Part shown: positions 11,361 to 43,657 of the stretch, piece after piece
Numbering within the stretch: the stretch's first letter is position 1
Layout: each line of letters starts with the position of its first letter
Source: Methylobacterium tardum
GTDB lineage: Bacteria; Pseudomonadota; Alphaproteobacteria; Rhizobiales; Beijerinckiaceae
Length of the DNA: 64,000 nt
Reading direction: 5' to 3'
Assembly (NCBI RefSeq): GCF_023546765.1
Contig: NZ_CP097484.1
Coordinates: forward strand, 1,181,501 to 1,245,500
Notes under the pieces: model-generated
Told to the model about the DNA's origin: nothing
Database searches by the model: none
Seen by the model: the letters and a program-made list of their open reading frames with translations, nothing else
Made by a program: the position numbers and the translations under genes

Positions 11361-13429
11361 GTGGTTCGTCAGGAGGTCGATGGTGGCGTGGCGGTGCTCA
11401 CGCTCGCCAATCCGCCGGTCAACGCGCTCGGCGCCGCGATGCGGGCAGCCCTCGACGGGGTCTTGGCGCAGGCCATCGCGGACGCGTCGGTCCGAGCGAT
11501 CGTCCTGGCGGCCGAAGGCAAGGTGTTCGTGGGCGGCGCCGACATCACCGAGTTCGGCAAGCCGCAGCAGCCGCCGAGCCTGCCGGACCTGTTGGACCGC
11601 CTCGATGCCAGCCCGAAGCCGGTGGTTGCGGCCATCGGCGGTGCGGCGCTCGGCGGCGGGCTGGAACTGGCCATGGCCTGCCACGGCCGCGTGGCGGCGC
11701 CGTCCGCCAGGATCGGCCTGCCGGAGATCAAGCTCGGGATCATCCCGGGAGCGGGGGGCACGCAGCGCCTGCCGCGCCTGATCGGGCCCGACGCCGCCTT
11801 CCCGATGATGCTCACCGGCGAGCCCGTTTCCGCCGAGAAGGCGGCGGCGCTCGGGATCGCCGATGCCGTGGTGCCGGGCGACCTCGTGGCGGAGGCCCGC
11901 AGGCGGGCGCTGGAGCTCGCCGATTCCGGCGCCCTGCCGCGGGTGCGCGACCGGTCTGAGAGGCTGACGCCGGCGGCCCGCGAAACCTTTGAGGCGCAGG
12001 CCGCCGAGGCGGTGAAGCGCGACCCCGACGCCACCAACGTCCATGCCCTGGTGCGGGCCGTGCGCGCCGGCCTGGAGCAGGACTTCGACGCCGCGGTGGC
12101 GGTGGAGCGGGCCGAGTTCCGCGCCCTGGTGGAGGATCCACGCTCCAAGGCCCTGCGCTACGCCTTCTTCGCCGAGCGCGAGGCCGCCCGGGTGCACGGC
12201 CTGCCGAAGGACACGCCCCGCCGTCCCATCCGCACGGCCGCCGTGATCGGCGCCGGCACGATGGGCGGAGGCATCGCGATGTGCTTCGCCAATGCGGGCA
12301 TCCCGGTGATGGTGATCGAGACCGAGGAGGGCGCCCTGGCGCGCGGCCTCGACCGGGTGAAGGGCCTCTATGCCGGCTCGGCCAAGCGCGGCTCGATCAC
12401 CGAGGCCCAGCGCGACGAGCGGGTCGGCCGGATCACCGGCGCAATCGGGCTGGAGAACGCCCAGGAGGCCGACATCGTCATCGAGGCGGCCTTCGAGGAT
12501 ATGGACGTCAAGCGCGAGATCTTCTCCAAGCTGGACCAGATCGCCAAGCCTGGAGCGATCCTGGCCACCAACACCTCCTATCTCGACGTGAACGCCATCG
12601 CGGCGGTCACGAACCGGCCGCAGGACGTGCTCGGCCTGCACTTCTTCAGCCCAGCCAACGTCATGCGCCTCGCCGAGGTGGTCCGGGCCGAGAAGACCGC
12701 CCCGGACGTGCTCGCCACCGCCCTCGATCTCGGCAAGCGCCTCAACAAACTGCCGGTGACGGTGGGGGTCTGCTTCGGCTTCGTGGGCAACCGCATGCTC
12801 GAGCGCCGCAGCCGGGCCGGCGAGCGCCTGCTGCTCGAGGGCGCGCTGCCCCACGAGGTCGACGCGGCGGTCACCGGCTTCGGCTTCCGGATGGGGCCCT
12901 TCGCCATGGGCGACCTCGCGGGACTCGATATCGGCTGGCGCTCGCGCAAGGATTTCGGCGGCCGGGCCCCGGTCGCCGATTCGCTCGCCGAGCAGGGCCG
13001 GTTCGGCCAGAAGACCGGGCGCGGCTTCTACCTCTACCCGGACGGCGCTCGCACCGGCACGCGCGACCCCGAGGTCGAGGCGCTGATCGCGCGCGTCGCC
13101 GCCGAGCACGGCGTCGCGCGCCGCAGCTTCACGGCCGAGGAGATCATCGCCCGGCTGATGTACCCGATGGTCAACGAGGGTGCGCGGATCCTGGAGGAGG
13201 GCATCGCGGCCCGGCCGGGCGACATCGATACGATCTGGATCAACGGCTACAACTGGCCGGCCTGCGCGGCGGCCCGATGCACTGGGCCGACACGGTCGGG
13301 CTGAAGACGATCGCGGAGGCGCTGTCGCGCTTCGCCGCGGAGACCGGCGACGACAGCCAGGAGCCGGCGCCGCTCCTGAAGCGCCTCGCCGCCGAGGGCG
13401 GCAGCTTCGCCGGCCTGAAGAACGCCTGA
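11361..13429 (+). CDS. PimF-like fused enoyl-CoA hydratase / 3-hydroxyacyl-CoA dehydrogenase (apparent frameshift near 13262)
   Basis: The bifunctional beta-oxidation enzyme is about 689 residues once corrected. The N-terminal crotonase domain (residues 1-190) has GGGLELAMACHGR and LPEIKLGIIPGAGGTQRLP. The NAD-binding dehydrogenase domain starts at about 293 (VIGAGTMGGGIA), with LGLHFFSPANVM further on. The frame breaks near 13262: INGYNWPA continues in another frame as RGGPMHWADTVG, which needs one extra G. The GTG at 11361 is chosen because AAGGAG lies six bases upstream. The gene heads an operon with thiolase and two acyl-CoA dehydrogenases, an order resembling pimFABCD for dicarboxylate degradation in Rhodopseudomonas, without the ligase gene. 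Confidence 0.85.
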
Positions 13430-13443
13430 GCGGGAGAGAGATC

Positions 13444-14630
13444 ATGACCGACGCGGTGATCGTCGCGACCGCCCGCACGCCCATCGGCAAGGCGCATCGC
13501 GGCGCGCTGAACCTCACCCGCGGCGCCGACCTCGCCGCCCACGCGATCCGGGCGCCCTCGACCGGGCGCGCCTGGAGCCCGAGGCGGTCGAGGAGGTGGT
13601 GCTCGGCTGCGGCTATCCGGAGAACGCCACCGGCGGCAACGTCGCCCGTCACGCGGCCCTGGTGGCGGGGATCCCGGTCGAGTCGGCCGGCGTCACGGTC
13701 TCGCGCTTCTGCGCCTCGGGCCTGGAGGCGATCGCCAGCGCGGCACGGCGGATCATCCTCGACGGCGTGCCGGTGGCGGTGGCGGGCGGCGTCGAGTCGA
13801 TCAGCCTCGTCCAGCCGAAGGTCCAGCGGGAGCTGACCCGCAACGCGTGGCTGGAGGCGCACCTGCCGGCGATCTACATGCCGATGATCGAGACCGCCGA
13901 CATCGTGGCGGAACGCTACGGCATCTCCCGGGAGGCGCAGGACCAATTCGCCCTGGAGAGCCAGCGCCGCACGGCCGACGCGCAGGCGCGCGGGCTGTTC
14001 GACGACGAGATCGTTCCGATGAGCGCCGTCATGGCGGTGACCGACAAGGCCACGGGCGAGACCCGGGAGGTCGAGACCCGGCTCGCCAAGGACGAGGGCA
14101 ACCGACCGGACACGAATCTGGAGGGCCTCGCCAAGCTCAAGCCTGTGCGCGGGGAGGGCGCCTTCATCACGGCGGGCAATGCCAGCCAGCTCTCGGACGG
14201 GGCCTCGGCCAGCGTGCTGATGTCGGCCGGCGAGGCGGCGCGCCGGGGCCTCACGCCGCTCGGCACCTTCCGGGGCTTCGCCTCGGCGGGCTGCGGGCCG
14301 GACGAGATGGGTATCGGCCCGGTCTTCGCGGTGCCGCGGCTGCTGGAGCGGCAGGGCCTCAGCGTCGCCGATATCGACCTGTGGGAGCTGAACGAGGCCT
14401 TCGCGTCGCAGTCGGTCTACTGCCGCGACAGGCTCGGGATCGACCCTGCGAAGGTCAACGTCAACGGCGGCGCGATCTCGGTCGGCCACCCGTTCGGCAT
14501 GTCGGGGGCGCGGCTCGTCGGCCACGCCCTGCTGGAGGGCCGCCGCCGCGGCGCGCGTTACGCCGTGGTGACCATGTGCGTCGCCGGCGGCCAGGGCTGC
14601 GCCGGCCTCTTCGAGATCGCCCGGAGCTGA
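13444..14630 (+). CDS. Acetyl-CoA acyltransferase (thiolase), PimB-like (apparent frameshift near 13551)
   Basis: Corrected length is about 395 residues, normal for a thiolase. The nucleophile cysteine is in [10 protein letters not shown], the catalytic histidine in [11 protein letters not shown], and the second cysteine in [10 protein letters not shown]. The first 36 residues (ending HAIRA) are in one frame and the rest (from about [17 protein letters not shown]) in another; adding one G in the run gcgccc near 13551 joins them. It cleaves 3-ketoacyl-CoA in the final beta-oxidation step. It starts 14 bp after the PimF-like gene and ends four bp before the first acyl-CoA dehydrogenase. Confidence 0.85.
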
Positions 14631-15965: not shown

Positions 15966-17119
15966 ATGGATTTCGACCTGAACGAGGACCAGTCGCTCCT
16001 GCGCGACTCGGTCGAGCGGCTGGCCGCCGACCTCTACCCGTCGCTGGAGAGCCGCCAGGCGCGGCTGAAGGCGCCGCTGGGCTTCCCCGCGGAGGGCTGG
16101 GCGGCTTTTCCGAACTCGGCGTCACCGGATTGCCGTTCTCGGAAGAGGACGGCGGCCTCGGCGGCGGCCCGGTCGAGACCCTGCTGGTCATGGAGGCGGT
16201 CGGCCGCAACCTCGTGGTCGAGCCGCTGCTGGCAAGCCTCGTCCTCGGCTCGACTGCCCTGCGGCTCGGCGGCAGCGCGGCGCAGAAGGAACGCCTCGTC
16301 CCCGGCCTCGTCGCGGGCGATCTGCGCCTCACCCTCGCCCACACCGAGCGCCAGTCCCGCTACGACCTCGCCGACGTGGCCACCACGGCCCGTCGCAGCG
16401 GCGACGGCTTCGTGCTGAGCGGCGCCAAGAGCGTCGTGCCCAACGCCGACGCGGCCGGCCTGATGGTGGTCTCCGCCCGGGTCTCGGGTGAGCGGCGCGA
16501 TCTGCACGGGATCGGCTTGTTCCTGGTCCCAACCGACGCCGCGGGCGTCGCCATCGAAGCCTATCCGACCCAGGATGGCGGCCGGGCCGCGGAAGTGTCC
16601 TTCTCGGAGGTGCAGATCCCTGCCGACTCAGCCCTGGGCGATCCCGAAGGCGGCCTGCCGCTCCTCGAGCGGGTGGTGGAGCACGGGATCGCGGCGCTCG
16701 CCGCCGAGGCGGTCGGCTCCATGGACGCGCTCCACAAGCTCACGGTCGAGTACCTCAAGACCCGCAAGCAGTTCGGCGTCAGCGTCGGCTCCTTCCAGGC
16801 CCTGCAGCATCGGGCCGTGGACATGCTGATTCAGCTGGAGCAGGCCCGCTCGATGGCGCTCTACGCCGCCATGATGGTGGACACGCCGGATGCCAAGGCG
16901 CGGGCCGCGGCCCTGTCGGCCGTGAAGGTGCAGATCAACAAGGCCTGCCGCTATGTCGGCCAGGAGGCGGTCCAGCTCCACGGCGGCATCGGCATGACCC
17001 TGGAGTACATCGGCGCCCACCATTTCAAGCGGCTCGCCATGATCGAGTACCAGCTCGGCGACACCGCCCACCACCTGCGCCGGATCACGCAGGACGAGAA
17101 CGGGCTGCTGGCGGCCTGA
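15966..17119 (+). CDS. Acyl-CoA dehydrogenase, PimD-like (apparent frameshift near 16113)
   Basis: Corrected length is about 384 residues. The N-terminus MDFDLNEDQSLLRDSVER runs in one frame up to EGWAAF. From SELGVTGLPFSEEDGG onward the protein continues in another frame; one pyrimidine is missing from ttttcc near 16113. Later motifs are intact: YLKTRKQFGVSVGSFQALQHR and QLHGGIGMTLEY at the C-terminus. The sequence type is that of the small PimD-like partner of acyl-CoA dehydrogenase pairs. It is the last gene of the operon. Confidence 0.83.
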
Positions 17120-37746: not shown

Positions 37747-38742
37747 TCAGATCACGAACAGCAGGTTCAGCCCGGCGCGCCGAAACCCTTCCTCGGCGAT
37801 CTTCAGATCGAGCCCGTAGGAGGCGATGTCGTCCGCCACCGGGTCGAGCGTCGGGGCCCGGTGCTGGTGCAGGTGCTTGATGTAGCTGTGGCAGGTCGTG
37901 CAGGTCTCGACCTGGATGTCCTTCGAGACCTCGTCGAGCCCGTAATAGCTGACGTTCTCACCGTCGCCGCAGGCTGTGCAGCGGATCCGGACGTGGTTCC
38001 AGTACGTGCCGCAGAGCGAGCAGCTCAGGTACCGAGCCTTGTCGGCCGGGGTCCAGGCGACCACGACGCTCGCCACCGGCGCGCCGCCGCAGCACGGGCA
38101 GACGCCGTCGGCCACCGGCTTCAGCGCCTTGGTGTCGAGGCGCGCGGCCTGCTCGGCGAGGCGCACCTGCAGCGCCGCCGAGACGAACACGCATTCGGCG
38201 ATCCGGTCCACCGGCAGCGCCCCTTCGAAGACCTGCAGGGCGAGGTCGAGGCGATCCTCCCGGGAGGCGGCGCGCAGGGACTCGCGCGCCGCGGCCGAAG
38301 CTTCGGGCGCCGTGTTGAGGTCCAGCGCGTCGAGCAGCGCCAGGAGGGTACCGTCGAAGCCCGTATCGGCCTCCAGGCTGTGCCGCGACAGGGGCGGCAT
38401 GCCGTGCTCGCTCCGCAGCGCTAGATCGGCGGCCTCCGGCAGCGTGGGAGCCGGGTCCTGCGCCTGGATCGCGCTCTGCGCCCGGGCAACCTCGGCGACG
38501 AACCGGAGATAGGCCTCCAGCGGATGACCGGGCGCGGCCTCGGCCAAGCGGGTGGCGCGGTCAGAGAACAGCGTCGTCGGATCCGGCAGGCGCACGAACG
38601 GGACCGAGCCGGAGATCCCGATCTTGTCCGGATCGGGCTTCAGCTCGCTGAAATCCCGGCGGCGGGGTTTGGGCGCCTCGGCGGGCGTCGGAGCCTTGTC
38701 CGCGGCCGGAGCCGCAGGTTTCCGCTTGAAGAAATTGGCCAC
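37747..38742 (-). CDS. fdhE: Formate dehydrogenase accessory protein FdhE
   Basis: The 331-residue cytosolic protein needed to mature respiratory formate dehydrogenases has four zinc or iron-binding CxxC pairs (CPCC, CSLC, CTAC, CTTC) spread over about residues 217-290. EETCTTCHSYIK-like C-terminal blocks and YYGLDEVS are FdhE-typical. GTG start, three bases after the gamma subunit stop, so it is the last gene of the formate dehydrogenase operon. Confidence 0.92.
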   Translation of the reverse strand: MANFFKRKPAAPAADKAPTPAEAPKPRRRDFSELKPDPDKIGISGSVPFVRLPDPTTLFSDRATRLAEAAPGHPLEAYLRFVAEVARAQSAIQAQDPAPTLPEAADLALRSEHGMPPLSRHSLEADTGFDGTLLALLDALDLNTAPEASAAARESLRAASREDRLDLALQVFEGALPVDRIAECVFVSAALQVRLAEQAARLDTKALKPVADGVCPCCGGAPVASVVVAWTPADKARYLSCSLCGTYWNHVRIRCTACGDGENVSYYGLDEVSKDIQVETCTTCHSYIKHLHQHRAPTLDPVADDIASYGLDLKIAEEGFRRAGLNLLFVI

Positions 38743-38745
38743 AAC

Positions 38746-39468
38746 TCAGGATCCGCGCTTGTCCACCGAGCCGTGGCGCGCCTTGCCGCCCGCGATCTGC
38801 CGGAACCACTTGCGGTGATGCCGGTAGGCCCAGCCGCCCGTGACCGTGCCGCGGACCATCGCCCGGCCGGTGCCGCGCACCCAGATGCCGGCATAGATGT
38901 GGACCACGATGATCGCGATGGCGATCACGGCGGCCAGCGAGTGGGCGAGCAGCGCCCAGCGCTGGGTCTCGATCGAGGTGAGCCCCCCGAAATAGGTGTT
39001 CCAGATCACCAGCCCGGTCACGAACATCACGCCGATCAGCGCGGTCTGGCCCCAGAACACGCCCTTCTGGCCGGCATTGTACTTGTCGAGCTCCGGCAGC
39101 CGGTCGTCGCGGTTGGTGACCACGTCGCCGATGTGCTTGGTCCACTCGACATCGTCCCTGTTGGGGATGTTGAGCTTCCAGAAGCGCACGAACAGGAAGA
39201 AGAAGCTGATGGCCAGCGCCACGCCGAACCACGGGTGGATCGCCCGGGTCGCCTGCCCGCCGCCGAACAGGCCGGTGAGCGAGAACAGGTAGGGCGTGAA
39301 CATCGCGAGCCCGGAGAGCGTCAGCAGCGTGAACAGAATCGCGGTGATCCAGTGGTTCACGCGCTGCACGCCCGTGTAGCGCGGGACGTACATCACCTCC
39401 GGCGCCGCGGACTTGGCGTGGTGGAGGGGGCGGGGATCGCCGTCCCGGATATCGCTGTGGATCGTCAT
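38746..39468 (-). CDS. fdoI: Formate dehydrogenase gamma subunit, membrane cytochrome b556
   Basis: The 240-residue protein has four membrane helices. QRVNHWITAILFTLLTLSG starts helix 1 with a heme-ligand histidine, FGVALAISFFFLFVRFWKL is helix 2, and HSLAAVIAIAIIVVHIYAG is the last with two histidines. It carries electrons from the beta subunit to the quinone pool. It is separated from the beta gene by 157 bases that contain a hairpin. Confidence 0.92.
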   Translation of the reverse strand: MTIHSDIRDGDPRPLHHAKSAAPEVMYVPRYTGVQRVNHWITAILFTLLTLSGLAMFTPYLFSLTGLFGGGQATRAIHPWFGVALAISFFFLFVRFWKLNIPNRDDVEWTKHIGDVVTNRDDRLPELDKYNAGQKGVFWGQTALIGVMFVTGLVIWNTYFGGLTSIETQRWALLAHSLAAVIAIAIIVVHIYAGIWVRGTGRAMVRGTVTGGWAYRHHRKWFRQIAGGKARHGSVDKRGS

Positions 39469-39625: not shown

Positions 39626-40561
39626 TCAGTGCGGCCGGGCCTCGCCGCCGCCATTCTCGCGGCGCTTGGCCTCGTCGTACTCGACCGCCTCTTCCTCCTC
39701 CTCGGGCACGACCTCGTTCGGGCCGGCCGTCACGTAGTGGAAGAAGCCCGCCACCGCCGCGAAGCCCATCGCGGCGAGACCGAACACCTTGGCGCCGCCC
39801 TTCCAGAAGGCGACCAGCGGTGAGATCTTCGGGTCGTTCGGCAGGCCGGCATAGAGGCTCGGCTGGTCGGCGTGGTGCAGCACGTACATGACGTGCGTGC
39901 CGCCGACCCCGGCCGGGTCGTAGAGGCCGGCATGCTCGAAGCCGCGCGACTTCAGGTCCTCGACGCGGTCGTGGGCCTGATCGATCATGGCCTGCTTGGT
40001 GCCGAACATGATCGAGCCGGTCGGGCAGGCCTTGGCGCAGGCCGGAGCCTGCCCCACCGCCACCCGGTCCGAGCACAGGGTGCACTTGTACGCCTTGTGG
40101 TCGGTCTGGCTGATGCGCGGAATGTTGAAGGGGCAGCCCTTCACGCAGTAGCCGCAGCCGATGCAGTTCTCCTCGATGAAGTCGGCGATGCCGTTGGAGT
40201 ACTGCACGATCGCGCCCGGCGACGGGCACGCCTTGAGGCAGCCCGGCTCGGTGCAGTGCATGCAGCCGTCCTTGCGGATCAGCCATTCGAGGTTGTTGGT
40301 CTCCGGGTTCTCGTACTCGGTAAACCGCATCAGGGTCCACGACTTCGGCGTGAGGTCGTGGGGGTTCTGGTAGGTGCCCGTATTGACACCGATGTCGTCG
40401 CGCAGGTCGTTCCACTCCTCGCAGGCCGACTGGCAGGCCTTGCAGCCGATGCACTTCGACACGTCGATGAGTTTGGCGACCTCCACCTGACGGCGGATCT
40501 CCGGCGGCGTCTCCGTGGAGGCGGAGCGCTGGCGGATGTCGAGGGAGCTGTAGTCAGCCAT
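39626..40561 (-). CDS. fdoH: Formate dehydrogenase beta subunit, 4Fe-4S ferredoxin type
   Basis: The 311-residue protein binds four [4Fe-4S] clusters. The cysteine groups are [37 protein letters not shown] and CTLCSDR...CAKACP. A single C-terminal membrane helix (about 255-275, [16 protein letters not shown]) anchors it. It relays electrons from FdoG to the gamma subunit. GGGGGAGCGG precedes the start, 15 bases after fdoG ends. Confidence 0.95.
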
Positions 40562-40576: not shown

Positions 40577-43500
40577 TTACGCGACCGCGTCCGACGGAGG
40601 CGTGGTCGGCTCGATGTTCACGAGCCAGGCCTTGAACTCCGGCGTCTCGGTGTTCGCGTCGCCCACGACCGGCGTGAGCGAGTTCGGGTGCCATCCTTTC
40701 TTGGTGTGGCCCATGAAGCCCCAGTGCTGCGGGATGCCGACGACGTGGACGGGCTTGCCGTCGCAGATCAGCGGCTTGATCCGCTTCGTCACCACGGCCT
40801 TGGCCTTCAGGGAGCCGCGCTTCGACCAGACGCGGACCCATCCGCCCTTGGCGATGCCCTTCTCCTTGGCGAGCTCCTCCGAGATCTCCACGAAGGCCTC
40901 CGGCTGGAGGATCGCGTTGATCCGGGCGTGCTTGGTCCACCCGTGGAAGTGCTCGGTCAGGCGGTAACTCGTCGCCGCGTAGGGGAACTCCTTCGCGTCG
41001 CCGAGATCGGCCAGATCGTCCTTGAAGATGCGGGACGCGGGCGCGCCCTTGATCTTCGGGAAGGCGAGGTTGGCCACCGGGGACTCGAAGGGCTCGTAAT
41101 GCGCCGGGAACGGCCCGTCGCGCATGAGACCCCGGGTCCACAGACGGGCGACGCCCTCCTGGTTCAGGATGAACGGCCCGACGCCCTTATCGGGGGCGAC
41201 GGTGACGCCGTAATCCGGCACGTCGAAGCCGATCCACTGCTTGCCGTTCCACTCGATGAGCTTCTTCTTCTCCGACCACGGACGACCCTCGGGGTCGCAC
41301 GAGGCGCGGTTGTAGAGCACGCGCCGGTTGGCCGGCCACGCGAAGGCCCAGTTGGGCGCGATGCCGCGATCGCCGGGATCGGTGTTGTCCCGGCGGGCCA
41401 TCATGTTGCCCTTCTCGGTGTAGCAGCCCGAGTAGATCCAGCAGCCGCAGGCGGTCGTCCCGTCGTCCTTAAGCTGGGCGAAGCCGTCGACCTGCTTGCC
41501 CGCCGGGATGATGGTCCCGTTGAGGTCCGGCGTCGGCGCCAGCGTGTAGCCGTTGAGCTCGCGGGCGAGCTCGGTCGGCGTCGGCGACTCGGCGATCGCG
41601 TAGTCCCACTTCAGATTGACAATCGGGTCCGGGAAGGCCCCGCCGTCCTTCTTGTAGGCCGCCTTCACGCGGAGGAAGATCTCCGACATGATCTCGATGT
41701 CCGAGCGGCACTCGCCCGGCGCTTCCTGCGCCTGCCAGTGCCACTGCAGCCAGCGGCTGGAGTTCGACAGCGAGCCTTCCTCCTCCACGAACAGGGTGGT
41801 CGGAAGCTCGAACACCTCGGTCTGGATCTTGGTCGGATCGACGTCGTTGTACTCGCCGTGGTTCTCCCAGAACCGGGCCGTCTCCGTCTTGAGCGGATCC
41901 ATCACCACGATGAACTTCATCTTGGAGAAGGCTTCCGTCATCTTGGCGCGATTCGGGAACGACAGCAGGGGGTTGAAGCCCTGGATGACGTAGCCGGTCA
42001 TCTTGCCCTGCTTGGCGAGCTCGAACCCGCGCAGCACATCGTAGGTCGGCACGTCGAGCTTGGGCAGATAATCGTACGCCCAGTCGTTCTCCTTCGTGGC
42101 CTTGTCGCCCCACATCGCCTTCTGAAACGAGACGAAGAACTTGTTGTAGTTCTGCCAGTAGCTCGTCTGTCCGGGACGCAGCGGCTTGAACTGCCGCTTG
42201 GCGATGTAGCTCGCGTAGTCGGGCTCCTTCTCCACCGGGATGTTGAGGTACCCGGGGATCAGGTTCGACATCAGTCCGATATCGGTCAGCCCCTGGATGT
42301 TGGAGTGACCGCGCAGGGCCTGCATGCCGCCGCCGAGCACGCCGATGTTCCCGAGCAGCGTCTGCACGATGCACATCGAGCGGATGTTCTGCGAGCCCTT
42401 GGAGTGATGGGTCCAGCCGAGGGCGTAGAGCGAGGCCATCGACTTCTCGGGGGAAGCCGTCGTCGCCATCAGCTCGCAGACCTTCAGGAAGGTCTCCTTG
42501 GGCGAGCCGCAGATCTTCTCGACCATCTCGGGGGTGTAGATCGAGACGTGCTTCTTCAGGAGCTGCATCACGCAGCGCGGGTGCTGCATCGTCTCGTCGA
42601 CCACGGCGTAGCCGTCGGGGCCGATCTCGTAGTCCCAGGTGGTCTTGTCGTAGTCGCGCTTGTCCGCGTCGTAGCCCGCGAACAGGCCCTCGCTGAAGTC
42701 GTAGCCCTCGCGGACCACGTACCCGGCGTTGGTGTAGGCGGAGACGTAGCGGTGCTGCAGCTTGTCGTTGTCGAGCAGGTACTTGGCCACGCCCGACAGG
42801 AACGCGATGTCGGTCCCCTGCCGGATCGGGCAGTAGAGATCGGCCACCGACGCCGTGCGGGTGAAGCGCGGATCGGCGACGATCAGCTTGGCATTGTTAT
42901 GAGCTTTCGCCTCGGCGACCCACTTGAAGCCGCAGGGATGCGCCTCGGCGGCATTGCCGCCCATCACGGTGATCACGTCCGCGTGCTTGATGTCCATCCA
43001 GAGGTTGGTCATCGCACCGCGTCCGAAGGAGGGCGCCAAACTGGCGACCGACGGACCGTGTCAAACTCTGGCCTGATTGTCGAAGACCAGAGCCCCCATG
43101 CTTCGGACTGTCTTGTAAGTCAGCCAGGCCGTCTCGTTGGTAGTGGCCGAGGCTCCGAGGAAGCCCATCGTGGTCCAGCGGTTGACCGTGAGGTCGCCGT
43201 TCTTGGCCACGAAGTTCTTGTCCCGATCCTCCTTCATCAGCTGCGCGATGCGGTCGAGGGCGAAGTCCCAGGAGACTCGCTTGAACTCGGAGGAACCCGG
43301 GGCGCGATGGAGCGGGTACTTGGTGCGGGTTTCGGCGTGCACGAAGTCGAGCAGCGCCGAGCCCTTCGGGCAGAGCGTGCCACGGTTGACCGGATGATCC
43401 GGATCACCTTCGATATGCATCACCGAGGAGCGCGCGTTCTTCGAACGGTCGCCCAGACTGTAGAGGATGACGCCGCACGCGACCGAGCAATACGGGCAGG

Positions 43501-43657
43501 TGTTGCGGGTCTCGCGCATCTGCGCGAGCTTGAAGGGCCGCACTGCGGCGGCCATGGCGGGCTCAAGTCCGCCGAATCCGAGCGCGCCTAGCGAGCCGCC
43601 CGCGAGGCCGGCGCCGGCCCCCTTGAGCAGGCCACGCCTCGAGACCTGGACCGTCAT
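40577..43657 (-). CDS. fdoG: Formate dehydrogenase catalytic alpha subunit, selenocysteine-containing (UGA at 43061-43063)
   Basis: The frame runs from ATG 43657 to 40577, 1026 residues counting one in-frame UGA as residue 199. The start has a twin-arginine export signal (SRRGLLKG), so the enzyme faces the periplasm. CPYCSVAC (Cys54, Cys57, Cys61) with Cys96 binds the [4Fe-4S] cluster. DNQARV-U-HGPSVASLAP matches the active site of E. coli FdnG/FdoG, where the residue is selenocysteine at almost the same position (196). Length also matches (1015 in E. coli). A SECIS-like hairpin follows the UGA. It oxidises formate with molybdenum or tungsten bis-MGD and feeds FdoH/FdoI. Reading the UGA as stop would split it in two. 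Confidence 0.93.
43031..43063 (-). promoter_or_regulatory. UGA codon and bacterial SECIS-like hairpin in fdoG
   Basis: Eleven bases after the UGA the mRNA can fold as GGU-CGCCA-GUU-UGGCG-CCC: a 5-bp upper stem with apical loop GUU, an unpaired U in the 5' arm, and a G-C lower pair set. The E. coli formate dehydrogenase SECIS has the same 11-base spacing, loop GU and bulged U, the features read by SelB. Confidence 0.85.

Follow-up and report, generated by a model that had tools for sequence, protein, structure and literature searches.

A predicted selenocysteine codon in the formate dehydrogenase gene fdoG of Methylobacterium tardum, and a second SelB lineage beside a probable selenoprotein in the genus

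Background

Formate oxidation is central to methylotrophs such as Methylobacterium. In the genome of Methylobacterium tardum (G000; 6.94 Mb in 2 contigs) the gene fdoG for a formate dehydrogenase (FDH) alpha subunit carries a TGA triplet within its reading frame. The locus raises the question of whether this TGA ends translation or is decoded as selenocysteine (Sec), and whether the genome encodes the machinery for the latter. Here, the window denotes the whole 64-kb stretch of DNA that was analysed around fdoG. From comparative sequence data we conclude, with a probability of roughly 95%, that fdoGHI-fdhE encodes a formate dehydrogenase of the FDH-N/FDH-O type in which UGA codon 199 is decoded as Sec. 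This fdoG belongs to a well-known family; the new lead is another SelB found together with a probable selenoprotein.

Coding potential across the in-frame UGA

The sequences flanking the TGA form two minus-strand ORFs (44296-43061 and 43039-40577) in the same frame. Read through the UGA from the ATG at 43657, the full-length protein matched TIGR01553 (FDH-N alpha) with 1413.4 bits at a cut-off of 814.2; the protein used in our searches (P0001) carries two extra codons ahead of this ATG. In the alignment, the UGA residue lies opposite the X of E. coli FDH-N (1kqf_A), the common context being ARV-X-HGP. A first-pass annotation, made from the DNA sequence alone, had proposed that the TGA is the sole break between two in-frame halves of fdoG, that it occupies the Sec site of E. 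coli FdnG and FdoG and that ordinary gene calling splits the gene in two. The ORF listing and the read-through product agree with the first of these points, the alignment bears out the second for FDH-N, and a mechanical ORF listing did return two pieces. We take the N-terminus of FdoG, with its motif SRRGLLK, to be of the Tat type.

Downstream of fdoG, fdoH, fdoI and fdhE follow on the same strand (Table 1). The fdoGHI genes adjoin each other, and this adjacent, co-directional arrangement of the beta and gamma subunit genes suggests an operon. FdhE comprises three FdhE Pfam domains, and fdhE follows fdoGHI in the fdo operon of E. coli as well.

Table 1. Positions of the features discussed. Plain numbers refer to the window, C1 to a contig of the M. 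tardum assembly and L to individual regions.
Feature	Position	Strand	Remarks
fdoG	40577..43657	-	formate dehydrogenase-N/O alpha subunit; 1026 aa; predicted Sec at residue 199
In-frame UGA	43061..43063	-	predicted Sec codon
SECIS stem-loop, lower helix	43018..43060	-	nt 4-46 from the U of UGA
SECIS upper hairpin	43032..43049	-	unpaired U17 at 43047; loop G23 and U24 at 43041 and 43040
fdoH	39626..40561	-	formate dehydrogenase beta subunit (iron-sulfur); TIGR01582, 462 bits, cut-off 335
fdoI	38746..39468	-	formate dehydrogenase gamma subunit (cytochrome b556); TIGR01583, 175 bits, cut-off 116
fdhE	37747..38742	-	formate dehydrogenase accessory protein; TIGR01562, 259 bits, cut-off 188
tRNA-Sec	C1:1991806-1991894		anticodon TCA; 76.1 bits
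selA	C1:6346970		527.7 bits, over curated cut-off; frame-broken near 3' end
selB	C1:6844715; L034:4674-6677	- (L034)	271.4 bits, cut-off 242
selD	C1:6486395		412.6 bits, over curated cut-off
Second FDH alpha gene (P0002)	C1:3024969-3028135 (L032:6970-10136)	- (L032)	in-frame TGA, ARI-U-HSSSV
Solute-binding protein gene with UGA	L238:10799-12367 (G095)	-	near selB-B; SECIS-like hairpin
Solute-binding protein gene with UGA	plasmid NZ_CP090580.1:278052-279614		

A SECIS hairpin downstream of the UGA

Bacterial SECIS elements follow the rule of an unpaired U and a GU loop at a fixed spacing. Counting from the U of UGA as 1, the hairpin of fdoG has an 11-nt spacer after the UGA (CACGGUCCGUC), a stem G15 G16 / C31 C32, an unpaired U17, 5 bp and a loop with G23 U24 U25; U17 and G23/U24 are presumably the bases that SelB reads. 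The 11-base spacing, the bulged U and the GU apical loop described in the first-pass annotation were all recovered in the fold, and the interval it had given for the element (43015-43070) was adequate, the Rfam match extending over 43008-43066. This match to SECIS_3 scored 63.9 bits (E 1.3e-12), exceeding the gathering threshold of 63 by 0.9 bits only, and was the sole Rfam match at gathering in the window.

To assess conservation we used 43 distinct 50-mers that carry the TGA, drawn from Methylobacterium and from other bacteria, with two TNA loci and a TGC locus excluded. The columns T17, G23 and T24 were invariant in 43 out of 43. Covariation amounted to 25 two-sided changed cells against 7.1 +/- 2.0 in shuffled data, with 0 out of 500 shuffles as high, although kinship alone may let sequences beat shuffles without any structure; 86.5% of the cells were paired, as opposed to 33-50% in slid controls. 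Folding, a check proposed by the first-pass annotation, gave the predicted hairpin shape, whereas the folding energy was not above chance (z -0.76; 33 out of 200 shuffles folded equally well). Hence it is the Rfam match and the covariation, not the folding energy alone, that mark the hairpin as more than chance. Synonymous diversity after the UGA was 0.106 (9 four-fold sites) compared to 0.250 (509 sites elsewhere) in 36 distinct Methylobacterium coding sequences, a low value that ranks merely 60th among 876 gene windows. The contrast was small in 50 distant loci, with 0.409 (10 sites) versus 0.473 (374 sites).

Genes for selenocysteine synthesis and insertion

The first-pass annotation had implied a selenium pathway (selA, selB, selC, selD) elsewhere in the genome. 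A genome-wide search for tRNA-Sec and the sel genes, on which the Sec reading depended, located all of them at four separate places (Table 1). Since the tRNA-Sec family search also matches other tRNAs, a second match over cut-off (51.5 bits) was inspected and is a tRNA-Ser according to ARAGORN. The genes for SelB, SelD and tRNA-Sec are unbroken. Thus, the genes of the anticipated pathway are present, while a frame break in selA and a second UGA-bearing FDH gene had not been foreseen. The selA gene changes frame at C1:6348.17-6348.21 kb, corresponding to about position 408 of the model; in each of the 46 further genomes whose selA exceeds the cut-off, the match continues to model position 444 or more.

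The second FDH alpha gene has its TGA at the place equivalent to that in fdoG. It differs from fdoG by a weaker SECIS_3 score (32.7 bits, E 4.9e-5), by an identity of only 39-43% and by being frame-broken in M. tardum, near C1:3026.1 kb, where the gene is open in both relatives inspected. An Rfam search of this region gave nothing at gathering. Across the genome, 150 of 4405 candidates were scored with SECIS_3, and the hairpins of fdoG and the second FDH gene were the two found. The folding energy of the latter is above chance (z -2.08 versus shuffles). The gene occurs in 11 out of 111 Methylobacterium genomes, the codon being TGA in 10 of them and TGN in the eleventh.

SelB of M. tardum has GTPase, beta-barrel and winged-helix domains and is the sole SelB over the cut-off in this genome. 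Identity of this protein, here called SelB-A, to SelBs encoded near FDH genes of other bacteria was 33-60%, mostly 33-43%, the upper values coming from short pieces. In a tree of 27 rows it shared a fully supported branch of length 2.14 with the proteins of M. haplocladii and M. jeotgali. In both of these species the gene for SelB of type A is co-directional with fdoG and lies some 3-4 kb downstream of it. Judged by its sequence, SelB of M. tardum is a strikingly divergent lineage.

Distribution of the selenium trait in Methylobacterium

An FDH-N orthologue of full or almost full length was found in 38 out of 111 Methylobacterium genomes, M. tardum included. The Sec codon is TGA in 37 of these, and in the remaining one (G068) it contains an N. 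The codon was TGA in 107, TNA in 2 and TGC in 1 of 110 loci from Methylobacterium and other bacteria, which come from two overlapping collections and do not represent 110 independent genomes. No SECIS sequence is left in the single TGC locus (L143), which comes from a Methylobacillus MAG. G068 was considered as a stop-free or Cys variant of fdoG and rejected on account of the N in the codon. In this strain, Methylobacterium sp. 2A (L050, L070, L179, L221), the lone N of each locus is in the Sec codon. The codons of its two FDH genes read TNA and TGN, as if a stop had been masked.

Matches over the cut-off were obtained for selA in 47, for selB in 48 and for tRNA-Sec in 48 of the 111 genomes. 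All three were present in 46, in line with the first-pass expectation that not all members possess the pathway. They occur together in 36 out of 38 FDH-N genomes compared to 10 out of 73 others. The FDH-N genome G108 (420 contigs) yielded no tRNA-Sec. For G038, which has FDH-N with the UGA, none of selA, selB and tRNA-Sec was found at the thresholds used. Its fdoG (L209) has a nearly identical hairpin, the match ends at residue 928 of 1028, and the gene is perhaps a remnant of the selenium trait. Conversely, G012 and G098 contain the machinery and none of the three selenoproteins (FdoG, the second FDH and the solute-binding protein described below) at strict thresholds. A tRNA-Sec match of 59.8 bits was seen in G010 without selA or selB, and selB and tRNA-Sec without selA in G050 (93% complete). 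Overall, the selenium trait is patchy across Methylobacterium.

Alternative readings of the UGA and of the frame breaks

The two pieces in the mechanical ORF listing are what a plain stop in a broken fdoG gene would leave. This reading is extremely improbable, as the identical UGA stands in 37 out of 38 genus orthologues and in other bacteria, the protein is conserved on both sides of it and the SECIS covaries. Hardly any more credible is a sequencing error concealing a true TGC or TGT. Indels do seem to be present in the assembly, but the TGA recurs in other assemblies, as the same 37 of 38 orthologues document, a SECIS would be pointless with Cys, and the lone TGC locus is the one without the SECIS sequence. 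For near-cognate suppression, by which e.g. Trp or Cys instead of Sec would be inserted, no support was found. The position of the UGA, the SECIS and the co-occurrence with selA, selB and tRNA-Sec make it very unlikely.

A different alternative grants that fdoG is a Sec gene by descent and holds that this strain has really lost Sec synthesis, selA and the second FDH gene being truly frameshifted. It draws on selA lying in two frames, on the split of the second FDH gene at a point where both relatives inspected are open, and on G038, a relative suggesting that loss of the pathway occurs. We compared the protein frames of the window genes of M. tardum with the corresponding regions in four relatives, since lists of nucleotide gaps, tried as a frame test, were noisy. 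Genes of M. tardum are split at 16.1 kb (16079-16109), 53.76 kb (53761) and 57.24 kb (57243) of the window relative to 4 out of 4 relatives. A further split at 13265-13551, likewise relative to all four, is in a region where the relatives disagree among themselves. Split genes numbered 5 out of 34, 7 out of 33, 7 out of 31 and 6 out of 29 against the four relatives and 0 to 6 in the other twelve comparisons, whose nonzero counts reflect noise from antisense ORFs that this method picks up. The assembly thus appears to carry scattered indels. Because several unrelated genes of the window are also broken, errors of this kind are the likelier cause of the breaks in selA and the second FDH gene. 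Moreover, fdoG, fdoH and fdoI show no gap relative to G043, fdoG is alignable over its whole length in the relatives, and selB, selD and tRNA-Sec are without break. A true loss is therefore unlikely, and decoding of the UGA as Sec is the reading that we follow below.

A candidate selenoprotein linked to a second SelB lineage

A second lineage, SelB-B, was found in 20 out of 111 genomes, M. tardum not among them, and was confirmed by sequence identity in all 20. It is one of two or more SelBs in 18 genomes and the only one in G046 and G102. To judge from bit scores, the other SelB of most of the 18 genomes would be of type A. As the genomes are related, the counts are not independent. In G069 the other SelB, encoded beside fdoG, is of the common type and not SelB-A. 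In G046 selB-B, selA and tRNA-Sec form a cluster next to a putative selenate ABC transporter (332.9 bits to TIGR04553, cut-off 250), and by homology G102 has the same arrangement of these genes and the transporter (L217 and L218 for G046 and G102). A phrase search of open-access papers for two SelBs gave no match.

Directly upstream of SelB-B, two conserved sequence pieces were present in the six regions first examined. In 5 out of 6 these are ORFs of the same frame with one stop between them; the three stops that were read are TGA. Joined, the pieces give a solute-binding protein of family 5 (117 bits to PF00496) with the context EGHW-U-VIDAPGPWGTGPF. It occurs in 21 out of 111 genomes (22 loci), with TGA at that residue in every locus; in G084 the copy is fragmentary, and in two loci a further stop precedes the likely start. 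The 20 genomes with an intact gene are exactly those with SelB-B, G041 having two of each, so that an intact copy of either is never found without the other in the 111 genomes. The solute-binding protein gene is followed directly by selB-B on the same strand in 18 out of 20 genomes. In G046 and G102 it lies about 2.4 kb from selB-B on the opposite strand, past selA and tRNA-Sec.

The hairpin after this UGA begins at the same distance of 11 nt; its stem contains an unpaired U18, and its loop reads GUGGG. G24 and U25 are present in 22 out of 22 loci, and the unpaired position 18 holds U in 16 loci and C in the other 6. The stem predicted for G046 is without a bulge. The folding energies of two of these hairpins were not above those of shuffles (z -0.63 and -1.01), and Rfam gave no match for the four loci tried. 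Within the gene, synonymous diversity is at its minimum over codons 200-208 (0.046 compared to 0.326 elsewhere; 21 loci), and these codons account for the 2 lowest of 195 windows. The Thr codon ACT, which makes up 1.3% of Thr codons elsewhere in the gene, is kept in this stretch in 21 out of 22 loci.

A protein database search returned 640 matches. Among the 120 listed, nearly all are 295-332 aa long and most cover 57-63% of the query; as the search admitted about 288-915 aa only, pieces preceding the UGA could not appear. The database proteins whose sequence was inspected start immediately behind the UGA or some twelve residues further on. Seven full-length distant relatives have Gly (five), Leu (one) or a gap (one) at the UGA residue and Cys in no case, so that the family would escape searches that rely on Cys homologues. 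The proteins P0003, P0004 and P0005 did not match the models NF040727 and NF040735 at E 0.001, which represent the Sec-containing ABC substrate-binding proteins SaoB/SaoX (PMC13188914). In the PLSDB gene table, which is incomplete, no gene is given between the MarR regulator and selB on the M. radiotolerans plasmid pNYY1_1. A structure model of the solute-binding protein had a mean pLDDT of 84.7; confidence is low around the predicted Sec residue 194 (below 50 at 190-192), so that the model gives nothing firm on a possible site. The protein is not described in the accessible parts of PMC9312934, PMC13188914 and PMC12013277. Taken together, the protein is probably a selenoprotein that has not been described before, seemingly with a SelB of its own.

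Discussion

In the decoding that we favour for fdoG, SelD would make selenophosphate, SelA would turn Ser-tRNA-Sec into Sec-tRNA-Sec, and SelB-A would bind the fdoG hairpin at U17/G23/U24 and deliver Sec-tRNA to the UGA. The product of fdoGHI would be a membrane-bound, periplasm-facing molybdenum/tungsten formate dehydrogenase with Sec at FdoG 199 as a ligand of the active site. Folded FdoG would be exported by Tat, and electrons from formate would pass via FdoH/FdoI to quinone.

For genomes with both lineages, co-occurrence and gene order raise the possibility of a split in Sec insertion with a shared tRNA-Sec, SelB-A reading the FDH hairpin and SelB-B that of the solute-binding protein. We put this forward tentatively and at somewhat less than even odds. 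Exceptions to such a split are the common-type SelB linked to FDH in G069 and the unpaired C in 6 out of 22 loci.

For annotation, the findings mean that gene callers split two enzymes of one genome. For Methylobacterium, they point to a selenium trait present in some species and absent from others. Sec-containing FDH-O encoded in fdoGHI-sel gene clusters has been described for Rhizobiales and other orders of the Alphaproteobacteria (Mukai 2021, PMC8124441), with Methylobacterium unmentioned in the main text. In contrast to these clusters, tRNA-Sec, selA, selB and selD of M. tardum are each located elsewhere in the genome. M. nodulans has been reported as an orphan-SelD species, and the portions consulted of these two studies describe no Methylobacterium selenoprotein (PMC5029168, PMC5322559).

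Compared with FDH-N (FdnGHI, 1kqf) and FDH-O (FdoGHI) of E. coli, the M. tardum system is alike in subunit set, Sec position, VUHGP context and SECIS type, the residue-by-residue comparison referring to FDH-N alone. It is unlike the E. coli FDH systems in its selB, which is of a divergent lineage. With a divergent SelB facing a standard FDH hairpin, SelB-B accompanied by a probable selenoprotein, and a genome that has the UGA gene but in which the machinery was not found, the pairing of SelB and SECIS becomes testable within one genus.
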